DNA from: Zoogloea oleivorans
Lineage (GTDB): Bacteria; Pseudomonadota; Gammaproteobacteria; Burkholderiales; Rhodocyclaceae
Direction of reading: 5' to 3'
DNA length: 64,000 bases
Assembly (NCBI GenBank): GCA_030157785.1
Contig: JAOAUC010000040.1
Location: 62,001 to 126,000, forward strand
Positions within the stretch are counted from its first letter, which is position 1. The number at the start of each line of letters is the position of its first letter. The notes below the pieces were generated by a model that worked only from the letters and a program-made list of their open reading frames with translations, made no database searches and had not been told where the DNA came from. Below are positions 5,743 through 49,268 of this stretch, piece after piece. The position numbers were made by a program, and so were the translations under genes.

Positions 5743-5891
5743 TTGCCGCTGGCTATCGCAGGCCAGCGTCGGAAAAACTTACATTCTCAATCCCCGACTC
5801 CCCAGCGACGGGAACCCTGTCGTCAGACAGGATTTGCAGGGAGTTGAATAACAAGAGAATTTCTGATTTTCTCCGGCCGCCGGGGGGATGG

Positions 5892-6022: not shown

Positions 6023-8236
6023 ATGATGACATCCTCCCGGTATGTGATTCCCTTGCTCACTGCGCTGTTCGCGGCGGCGCTTGTCCCGGTGGCCCATGCG
6101 GCCCCGACCATTTCAAACGGTGGATTCGAGTCGGGGTTCGCGGGCTGGACCGTGGAGGACCAGCCTGGCAGTGAAGGAAGCTTTTACATTCAGAGCGGTA
6201 CCGTCAGCCCGACAACAGGGTTTGATGTGCCATCGCCGCCCGAAGGCACCCAGGCGGCGATGAGTGACGCCGGGCTTGGGGGCCCTGGGTCGCACGTGCT
6301 GTACCAGGATTTCCTGGCGACGGTGGCCAGCGCTGCACTGAGTTTCGATCTCTACATCGGCAACCGGGCGGACGCTTTCTCGAGCCCGGCTTCCCTCGAT
6401 TTCAGCATTGCGGCGCTGAACCAGCAGCTACGCGTCGATATCCTGACCACCAGCGCCGACCCTTTCAGCGTGGCGGCGGGGGATGTGCTGATGACCCTTT
6501 ACCAGACGGCCGCCGGAGACCCGCTGGTCGAGGGCTACAAGACCATCACCCAGGACATCAGCGCCCTTCTTGCGGCCCATGACGGCGAAATGCTTCGGCT
6601 GCGCTTTGCCGAAACCGACAACGTCAATTTTTTCCAGATGGGAATCGACGATGTGCGCATCCAGTCGACAGCGGTACCTGAACCCGGGTCGATGCTTCTG
6701 ATTGGCTGCGCGGCGGGGGCACTCGCGTTTGCACGGGCCCGTCGCAGCACGCTGGCCGCCATGGTTTCGTTTTGTATCGGTGCCGGTCTGTCCAGCCCAG
6801 GCCGGGCTGACACCATTCCGGTCGAGGTTCTCGATCCGAATCTTGAGGTCGTCACGGTCCTGAACAGCGGGCTCAGCCAGCCGATCGGCATCGTCTTTCT
6901 CGCCGCCAACGACTTTCTGGTGCTCGAAAAGGCTTCGGGCGTGGTCCGGCGGGTGACCAACGGCGTTCTGCAGGCCATGCCCGTGCTGGATCTGGCGGTC
7001 AATTCGAACTCCGAGCGGGGGCTGCTGAGCCTGGTACTGCACCCGAACTTCCCGGCCACGCCTTATGTGTATGTTCGGTGGACCGAAAGCTCCACGGGCG
7101 TCGATTCGGCAGCGGTTTCCAGCGTGCCGCTTCTGGGCAACCGCGTCGATCGCTTTGCCTGGGACGGCAGCACGCTGGTGTTCGACGTCAATGTGCTGAT
7201 GCTTCGCGCGCGCCAGACCGATAACGTCGCGGTACCCGGCCATGCCGGCACGAACAACGCCAACGAGGCCGGCAACCACAATGGCGGCGTGATGCGTTTT
7301 GGCCCCGACGGCAAACTGTATGTGTTCATGGGGGATCAGGGGCGGCGGGGCTGGCTGCAAAACCTGGCCAACGGCCCGTTTCTCACTGCGCCGCAGAGCG
7401 ACGATACCTTCGGCGGGCCGGCACCGGACAACGCTCACCTTTCCGGCGTCATCCTGCGCCTGAACCCGGATGGCACCACGCCTGCCGACAATCCTTTCTT
7501 TGCCTCCGGCGCCGGAATTGGCGGGGAAGTGGGCGCCAACATCCAGAAGATCTTTTCCTACGGGCACCGCAATGGCTTCGGCATGGCCTTCGACCCCTTC
7601 TCGGGCTCCCTCTGGGAAACGGAGAACGCCGACGATGCCTACTCGGAACTGAATCGCGTGGTTCCGGGCATGAACGGAGGCTGGATCCAGTTTGCCGGCC
7701 CGTTGAGCCGCGCACCGAACTGGAAGTCCATCGAAACGACCCAGTTCAACATGTCCCTGCAGCAGCTGCGCTATCCACCAACACGCGCGGCCTACACTTC
7801 AGCGCTGGCCCAGTCGAGACTGGTGATGCTGCCTGGTGCCGTTTATAAGGACCCGGAGCTGAGCTGGCGCTACGAGATCGGCCCGTCCGGTACGGCCTTT
7901 GTGACCGGCAATGCGCTTGGGAGTGAATACAACGGCTCGTTGTGGATAGGCTCGGCGCGTTCCTTCGGGCAGGTTGGCGGCAATGGCGGGAGCCTCTATC
8001 GGATCAGGCTCACGGCCGACCGCCTGAACGTGGATGTGAGCGCCGACCCGCGACTCGCCGACCGTGTGGCCGACAACCTCTTCCGGGCCCAGAAGTTCGA
8101 CGGAACCGAGAGCGAAACCCTGCTGATCGGCAAGGGATTCGGGACTACGCCGAGCATCGAGCAGGGCCCGGACGGCAACCTGTACGTGGTGTCGCTCTCC
8201 GATAACACGATCTACACGATCAGGCGCCGTCCTTGA
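6023..8236 (+). CDS. Chimeric protein: PEP-CTERM module fused to a PQQ-type sugar dehydrogenase-like domain
   Basis: A 737-residue protein in one uninterrupted frame. Residues 1-30 are a Sec signal ending HAAPTISNGGFE, followed by a carbohydrate-binding-like beta domain typical of PEP-CTERM proteins. A complete sorting signal then appears internally: VPEPGS at residues 218-223, a hydrophobic stretch, then the basic cluster RARR. A second signal-like segment follows (LAAMVSFCIGAGLSSPGRA), then a glucose/sorbosone dehydrogenase domain with GNHNGGVMRFGPDGKLYVFMG and YGHRNGFGMAFDP plus NGGW. PEP-CTERM signals are normally at the extreme C-terminus, so this looks like two secreted genes merged. 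The start ATG is chosen at the signal peptide; its ribosome binding site is poor, and Met247 (6761) could be a separate start for the enzyme half. The substrate is unknown. Confidence 0.8.
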   Translation: MMTSSRYVIPLLTALFAAALVPVAHAAPTISNGGFESGFAGWTVEDQPGSEGSFYIQSGTVSPTTGFDVPSPPEGTQAAMSDAGLGGPGSHVLYQDFLATVASAALSFDLYIGNRADAFSSPASLDFSIAALNQQLRVDILTTSADPFSVAAGDVLMTLYQTAAGDPLVEGYKTITQDISALLAAHDGEMLRLRFAETDNVNFFQMGIDDVRIQSTAVPEPGSMLLIGCAAGALAFARARRSTLAAMVSFCIGAGLSSPGRADTIPVEVLDPNLEVVTVLNSGLSQPIGIVFLAANDFLVLEKASGVVRRVTNGVLQAMPVLDLAVNSNSERGLLSLVLHPNFPATPYVYVRWTESSTGVDSAAVSSVPLLGNRVDRFAWDGSTLVFDVNVLMLRARQTDNVAVPGHAGTNNANEAGNHNGGVMRFGPDGKLYVFMGDQGRRGWLQNLANGPFLTAPQSDDTFGGPAPDNAHLSGVILRLNPDGTTPADNPFFASGAGIGGEVGANIQKIFSYGHRNGFGMAFDPFSGSLWETENADDAYSELNRVVPGMNGGWIQFAGPLSRAPNWKSIETTQFNMSLQQLRYPPTRAAYTSALAQSRLVMLPGAVYKDPELSWRYEIGPSGTAFVTGNALGSEYNGSLWIGSARSFGQVGGNGGSLYRIRLTADRLNVDVSADPRLADRVADNLFRAQKFDGTESETLLIGKGFGTTPSIEQGPDGNLYVVSLSDNTIYTIRRRP

Positions 8237-48563: not shown

Positions 48564-49268
48564 TTATTGCTGTTTGTTGCGCAGACGTGCCGCGCCGACG
48601 AGCAGACCACCGAGGCCGAGGGCCAAAGTGCCGGGTTCCGGAACGCTTTGAGAGGCCTCGACACGAACGGCATCGATGCCCAGTCGGGAAGTGCCCACGT
48701 AATCGTTGATATCCACGACACCGAACACCAGCTTCACGTTGCCAGCGCTGCTGAAAGCGTAGCTGAAGTGCTGGCCGGTGGCGCCACCGGCCACGTCGCC
48801 AAGAACGGTCAGTACGTCGCCGATGAGCACGAAGGCGTAGTCGTTCATGCCGGTGAGCGGGTCTTCGTTTGACGCGAAGGTCCAGTCGAAGGAGAGGCTG
48901 TCACCCGCCTGAACCGTGAGGGTCTGCTGAAGGGCCGATCCTTCGAAGGCCCAGGTGCCCGCGGCGGGGTCCGGATCGAGGGCGCCCAGCGGCAGGCCGG
49001 CAAAGTCCTCCAGCCCGCCGGGCATGCCGACGAGGGCGGCTGCGCTGCCGGAAACGTTGAAGGCGGCGTTGGCAGCCGGGGCGTCGTCGGCATCCAGGGA
49101 GGCGGTGGTGAGTACCGCCGCACCAGCCGATACGGCCACGTCGCCAAGGCTGCTCCAGCCGTTGAGGCCAGCGTTGAAGTCTCCGTTGAGCACGCCGGCC
49201 TGGGCGGTCAGTGCTGTGGCCAGGGTGCTCAGGAACAGGGCGGCGGAAAGGGATTTGCGCAGTTTCAT
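48564..49268 (-). CDS. PEP-CTERM sorting-domain protein
   Basis: A 234-residue exported protein. The signal peptide ends LTAQA-GVLNGDFNAGLNGWSSLGDVAV, a beta-rich domain of the NF038120-like type follows, and the C-terminus is VPEPGTLALGLGGLLVGAARLRNKQQ, with the PEP motif, a hydrophobic stretch and a basic tail. An exosortase should cut at the PEP motif and release or anchor the protein. No exosortase is in the window. It lies 21 bases after the nuclease gene, so they are probably co-transcribed. Confidence 0.9.
   Translation of the reverse strand: MKLRKSLSAALFLSTLATALTAQAGVLNGDFNAGLNGWSSLGDVAVSAGAAVLTTASLDADDAPAANAAFNVSGSAAALVGMPGGLEDFAGLPLGALDPDPAAGTWAFEGSALQQTLTVQAGDSLSFDWTFASNEDPLTGMNDYAFVLIGDVLTVLGDVAGGATGQHFSYAFSSAGNVKLVFGVVDINDYVGTSRLGIDAVRVEASQSVPEPGTLALGLGGLLVGAARLRNKQQ

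Follow-up and report, generated by a model that had tools for sequence, protein, structure and literature searches.

A PEP-CTERM sorting signal placed between a jelly-roll domain and a predicted secreted dehydrogenase: a recurring gene fusion in Zoogloea oleivorans and other bacteria

The window analysed here, a stretch of 64,000 nucleotides from Zoogloea oleivorans (contig JAOAUC010000040.1, positions 62,001 to 126,000), carries a gene in which a PEP-CTERM sorting signal lies in the middle of a single reading frame, followed by a stretch resembling a second signal peptide and by an enzyme of the glucose/sorbosone dehydrogenase family. This arrangement is a genuine gene fusion that recurs in several species. 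We consider it probable that the fused gene encodes a natural polyprotein for secretion: the basic tail of the PEP-CTERM tag would serve as the n-region of the second signal peptide, and two cuts would yield two products.

Architecture of the fused frame

The frame spanning positions 6023 to 8236 of the plus strand is free of stop codons over 737 codons and comprises 737 residues and the stop; the same open frame reaches upstream to an ATG at 5888, with 782 codons in all. It starts with a predicted N-terminal signal peptide (SP1, residues 1–26, positions 6023–6100), read from hydropathy and inspection only, whose hydrophobic stretch comes after Arg6 and whose presumed cleavage site lies between AHA and AP. 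A predicted jelly-roll domain resembling carbohydrate-binding modules follows (residues 27–216, positions 6101–6670; AF2, Foldseek and comparison of 22 loci), and then the three parts of a PEP-CTERM tag: the motif VPEPGS (residues 218–223, positions 6674–6691; Pfam and NCBIfam profiles), the hydrophobic helix TM1 (residues 223–237, positions 6689–6733; profile, hydropathy and AF2) and the basic cluster RARR (residues 238–241, positions 6734–6745; profile and alignments), which is also the presumed n-region of the next element. This element, SP2, is a second signal-peptide-like stretch (residues 242–262, positions 6746–6808; hydropathy and position) with a presumed cut between GRA and D, and the enzyme occupies residues 263–737 (positions 6809–8233; PF07995 and PDB matches). 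All these features are encoded on the plus strand. At full length, the protein was modelled poorly by AF2 (pLDDT 58.9), and that model is usable solely for the presence of two helices; TM1 appears in it as a helix at residues 223–239, with low confidence there, and is also helical in the domain model. An earlier note on this DNA had claimed an internal PEP-CTERM signal followed by a signal-peptide-like stretch and an enzyme within one 737-residue frame, and the reading frame, the profiles and the recurrence in other species bear this out. Its expectation of a mature N-terminus near residue 268 needs correction, as the presumed signal peptidase site lies between A262 and D263.

Profile scores of the tag sit about at the cut-offs and depend on the stretch that is given to the search. 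PF07589 matched residues 217–241 with 20.2 bits in the whole protein, just under its cut-off of 20.7, with 22.3 bits in a 217-residue piece and with 21.0 bits in the genome search, and TIGR02595 (cut-off 16) gave 16.2 bits over the full protein against 15.8 for its first part. Among the 17 PF07589 matches of the same genome, the distance from motif start to stop is 24–27 residues in 15, 50 in one and 521 in the fused frame. The internal tag is more than a chance match, since the other tags of the genome end near the stop and an internal tag joined to the same enzyme recurs across species. In the split orthologues the tag stands at the extreme C-terminus, as usual for PEP-CTERM proteins. Judged by its sequence, the fused chain would thus not be an ordinary PEP-CTERM member, and its first half would resemble one. 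The exosortase that the earlier note had proposed to look for is present in the genome of the window as one PF09721 match of 227.3 bits. At least one match was likewise found in 20 of the 21 other carrier genomes or records; the exception is the record from Thiodictyon, which covers the plasmid alone. Over 23 Zoogloea genomes, the PEP-CTERM matches add up to 424. The only other long tail among the 17 matches of the genome belongs to a PEP-CTERM protein on another contig (L080, C8:56891-56956; the case with 50 residues), and a further PEP-CTERM motif (L077) lies within the window on the minus strand, at positions 48579–48647, at the end of a 241-codon frame.

The beta domain was modelled by AF2 with a pLDDT of 89.8, and Foldseek placed it near beta-sandwich folds, including CBM61, CBM4, MAM, adhesin and tailspike domains, with CBM61 (2xom) as the best match (E 7.1e-7, TM by query 0.49). 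A search of its sequence profile against solved structures gave no relative (best E 0.39). The likeness is a fold resemblance of moderate score, and the domain is predicted to be carbohydrate-binding-module-like. Three distant relatives of the domain (L024, L025 and L062; 34–40% identity) each possess their own PEP-CTERM-like end. Relatives of the domain adjoin alkaline-phosphatase-like genes in three of four cases (these three loci, and none seen at L023), the neighbour being assigned by Pfam PF00245 for L025 and by reading-frame resemblance for L024 and L062. Partnership with secreted enzymes may be a general trait of the beta domain.

The enzyme matches PF07995 (GSDH) over residues 284–554 (E 2.8e-39; 135.8 bits against a cut-off of 25), and its relatives in the PDB are soluble PQQ glucose dehydrogenases and related enzymes, such as 5min, 1c9u and 2ism. 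Its alignment with 5min pairs the His of NHNGG, the GDQGR stretch and GHRN, which may correspond to PQQ-site residues of soluble glucose dehydrogenase. Domain match and structural relatives link the enzyme to the PF07995 family; its TIGR03606 score (101.2 of 434.55 bits) is far under the NCBIfam cut-off. Among 21 carrier genomes, PqqE exceeded its cut-off in 12, that of the window included, as it did in none of 14 control genomes, so dependence on self-made PQQ does not appear to be general. A distant dehydrogenase of the same family (L059, match 1519–2649) has its own PEP-CTERM-like tail at the C-terminus. It is a speculation that the two products together bind and oxidise sugars of the extracellular matrix.

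Fused and split relatives and the origin of the fusion

A scan with one genome per species yielded 20 loci, a plasmid collection added one (L063) and the window completed a set of 22. In all 22 loci both modules are adjacent and co-oriented, a result to which the scan may have contributed, as its query was the fused protein and may favour such loci; the beta domain is present in each of them. Six loci hold a stop-free single frame: the window, an independent genome of Z. oleivorans (L002; 94% identity to the window, with the same fusion), Zoogloea dura (L003), Rubrivivax pictus (L006), a Methylococcaceae MAG (L004) and the complete plasmid of Candidatus Thiodictyon syntrophicum (L063), where the fusion is annotated as a single CDS. 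In one further locus with the same order of modules, from another Methylococcaceae MAG (L011), a TGA at positions 2156–2158 falls within the PEP-CTERM helix region; the frame reopens after it and continues up to the enzyme with no ATG in between, and the contig stops inside the enzyme. This TGA may be an error or the mark of a broken gene. The modules are separate genes in the same order in six loci (L005, L009, L017, L018, L019 and L021), with spacers of 26–77 nt, and in the reverse order in nine (L007, L008, L010, L012-L016 and L020). The split orthologues show the ordinary PEP-CTERM layout. Fused frames, counting L004 and L011, make up seven of the 13 loci in which the PEP-CTERM gene comes first and none of the nine in which the enzyme comes first (Fisher p 0.017, kinship ignored). 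Conserved fusion and split genes had been set against each other as outcomes of a comparison of orthologues, and both were found: the fusion in several species, split genes in 15 of the 22 loci, and the TGA of L011 besides.

Within Zoogloea, the locus was detected in five of 23 genomes at E 1e-20, three fused and two split; these five are the genome of the window, L002, L003, L005 and L021 and thus add no cases beyond the 22 loci, and several of the 18 genomes without the locus are incomplete. In plasmids, 170 records gave a match, and the single one covering at least 80% of the query was that of Thiodictyon. Viral contigs contained no confirmed relative, and four phage records matched at about 27% identity over 37–38% of the query, far more distant than the 22 loci. 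Sampling more widely, at the level of family, order and class, brought up no additional close relatives. In the first, 62 of 199 matched at E 1e-3, all except the genome of the window at E 4e-29 or weaker; in the further ones, six of 399 matched at 1e-30, the genome of the window included, and one of 369, that same genome, at 1e-60. These draws were thin, as they failed to pick up carriers already found in the scan with one genome per species. The pair is well conserved yet patchily distributed, occurring in Proteobacteria, in Planctomycetota and in a MAG called Deltaproteobacteria, a pattern suggestive of horizontal transfer. The Gemmataceae enzyme (L007, 4993–6723) begins with RLRLERLEDRAVP, presumably a planctomycete N-terminal motif, instead of an ordinary signal peptide.

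The earlier note had also raised the possibility that a sequencing or assembly error removed a stop or shifted the frame. Two points favour it: the genome of the window is a draft in 87 contigs, and a TGA does interrupt the tag region of the related MAG L011. Nonetheless, the same fusion occurs in the independent L002 genome, others are found in L003, L006 and the complete plasmid L063, and dN/dS lies well under 1 in both halves. The independent genomes and the plasmid lead us to reject this explanation, which we hold to be extremely improbable.

A tree of both modules with 22 rows requires at least four changes between fused and split states. Placing the seven fused rows (L011 included) in one clade was rejected (AU p 1.05e-8). 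In the tree, Z. dura falls beside the two split Zoogloea loci (support 98/96), and forcing it together with the window and Z. oleivorans, a group that was named after the first tree, was disfavoured (AU p 0.024). Tree and AU test together lead us to reject a single ancestral fusion; the two genes seem to have been joined repeatedly. The tree has no established root and so does not tell gain from loss, but for a re-split the stop, ribosome site, start and n-region would all have to be rebuilt.

The likely course of the joining is best seen in Z. dura. In its alignment with the split locus L021, the largest gap measures 119 nt, lies in the Arg codons and spans the stop, the spacer, the ribosome site, the ATG and the SP2 n-region with which the enzyme's signal peptide begins; further, smaller gaps fall within that signal peptide. 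The alignment program broke up the gap or placed it elsewhere when Z. dura was compared with split L005, and L002 and L006 with their split relatives, and in the comparison of the window with L021 it left one large gap placed a few codons earlier. Given this scatter, the alignment of Z. dura with L021 is the only clean one, and it suggests that a deletion created the fusion. The proposal that two genes had merged by loss of a stop holds as history; in Z. dura, the case best suited to comparison, the stop, the ribosome site and the start that L021 has are all missing.

Conservation, translation and proposed processing

Both halves of the fused protein are under purifying selection. Between the window and L002, dN/dS was 0.125 in the beta domain, 0.27 in the tag, 0.57 in SP2 and 0.082 in the enzyme. 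The hydrophobic stretch is kept in all six fused proteins, with best 12-mer values of 1.76–2.50 compared with 1.74–2.46 in the split ones. No 19-mer of TM1 or SP2 exceeds a Kyte-Doolittle mean of 1.5, both being short, and the 12-mer value of SP2 in the frame studied here is attained by 2.5% of the windows taken from the mature parts. The case for SP2 therefore rests less on hydropathy than on its position ahead of the enzyme, matching the signal peptides of the split relatives. In the frame studied here, the -3 residue of the presumed cut site is Gly, which counts against the two-cut reading favoured below.

Alternatively, the enzyme could still be made as a separate protein. The frames may have merged while the enzyme kept initiating at an internal codon, at the ATG of positions 6761–6763 or in the tag region, so that two proteins would result as before. 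In all six split loci with the same order, the enzyme starts with an ATG whose ribosome-site energy is -6.4 to -11.0 kcal/mol. By comparison, from the basic cluster to the mature enzyme the window has a sole in-frame ATG, at 6761, at -1.5 kcal/mol, and its counterpart in Z. oleivorans L002 has the same energy; a signal peptide starting there would be without a basic n-region. No ATG stands between tag and enzyme in L006 or in L063, the latter having just a TTG at -2.6 kcal/mol. Starts in L003 (-5.0 and -4.9) and L006 (-5.8) lie solely inside the hydrophobic stretch, and GTG codons occur just ahead of the tag in L002 (-6.8) and L063 (-6.6 and -6.0). Internal initiation would find a firmer footing in L003, where the product of an ATG inside TM1 (-2.5) would resemble a good signal peptide, and above all in L004, which retains an ATG inside the frame (ribosome site -8.0) and may well represent two separately translated genes. 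Moreover, the ribosome site of the frame's own start at 6023 reaches merely -2.8, so weak sites are no bar to initiation here. With the exception of L004, a strong ribosome site and start are absent between tag and enzyme. We therefore regard separate initiation of the enzyme in the window as unlikely.

As for translation as one chain, we propose the following course for the polyprotein. To function, a signal peptide requires a basic n-region on the cytoplasmic side. Haft et al. 2006 (PMC1569441) model the tag with its PEP motif at the periplasmic face and with charges that set the orientation of the helix, so the basic tail of the tag would be in the cytoplasm; given the tail-to-head joining, one Arg cluster can then serve both the tag and SP2. 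SP1 would start export and the jelly-roll domain would pass to the periplasm, the PEP-CTERM helix would halt in the membrane with RARR in the cytoplasm, and SP2, with the same Arg cluster as its n-region, would re-enter the membrane and export the enzyme, the chain threading as a hairpin. Signal peptidase I would cut between A262 and D263 and free the enzyme, and exosortase would cut at the internal PEP motif and process the jelly-roll protein. The fused gene would thereby yield the two proteins that the split genes encode, in a ratio of 1:1. This topology, both cuts and the cooperation of the products are inferences. That exosortase alone would set the enzyme free, as the earlier note had suggested, seems less likely than a cut by signal peptidase between A262 and D263.

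The tag itself could, on the other hand, be a vestige. The PEP-CTERM segment and SP2 would then be a remnant membrane hairpin, exosortase would be inactive on it, and the product would be an uncut chain or a tethered pair cut by signal peptidase. Tags distant from the C-terminus speak for this, since Haft et al. 2006 (PMC1569441) suggested that the few with much longer tails may be non-functional. PAP replaces PEP in L063, SP2 evolves fastest, and the basic cluster shows a two-codon in-frame indel between the window and Z. oleivorans L002. Against it, P-E-P is kept in five of the six fused frames, the presumed cut has Ala before Asp in all six, and the 27 aligned codons of TM1 and the basic cluster contain just two non-synonymous changes between the same two genomes. 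Signal peptides are often fast-evolving. SP2 is the fastest-changing part of the protein, and decay could look alike. On balance, a vestigial tag appears rather unlikely, and the polyprotein with two cuts remains the reading that we favour. Its more specific form, in which exosortase cuts a mid-chain tag held in a hairpin and the combination of tag and signal peptide acts as a ready joint for repeated 1:1 polyproteins, is tentative, and we put it slightly short of even.

Relation to known systems and significance

FbcH of Bradyrhizobium, the cytochrome b/c1 polyprotein, yields two exported proteins from one gene, its internal signal peptide being cut by signal peptidase. The frame described here, as judged from its sequence, resembles it in that one bacterial gene would encode two predicted exported proteins with an internal signal peptide between them. 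It differs in that FbcH is without a sorting tag, while here a C-terminal tag has been turned internal, its basic tail would double as an n-region, and the fusion is recurrent. The substrates of the PEP-CTERM/exosortase (EpsH) system share with the fused protein a signal peptide, a PEP motif, a helix, a basic cluster and an exosortase in the genome. They differ in the place of the tag, which stands 521 residues before the stop here, with the SP2-like stretch and the enzyme after it, and near the extreme C-terminus in the published cases, 87% of which are followed by fewer than 10 residues (Haft et al. 2006, PMC1569441). A literature search, with most subscription papers beyond reach, found no paper joining exosortase with polyprotein or PEP-CTERM with sorbosone dehydrogenase, and titles and the beginnings of abstracts on internal tags or internal signal peptides held nothing to the point.

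With split relatives at hand within the genus, these naturally fused genes allow a direct test of whether a PEP-CTERM tag functions away from the C-terminus. A simple way in which bacterial polyproteins could arise is also suggested by them, in which the cytoplasmic basic tail of the tag is what a next signal peptide needs, so that one short deletion could join two exported genes and leave their topology undisturbed.
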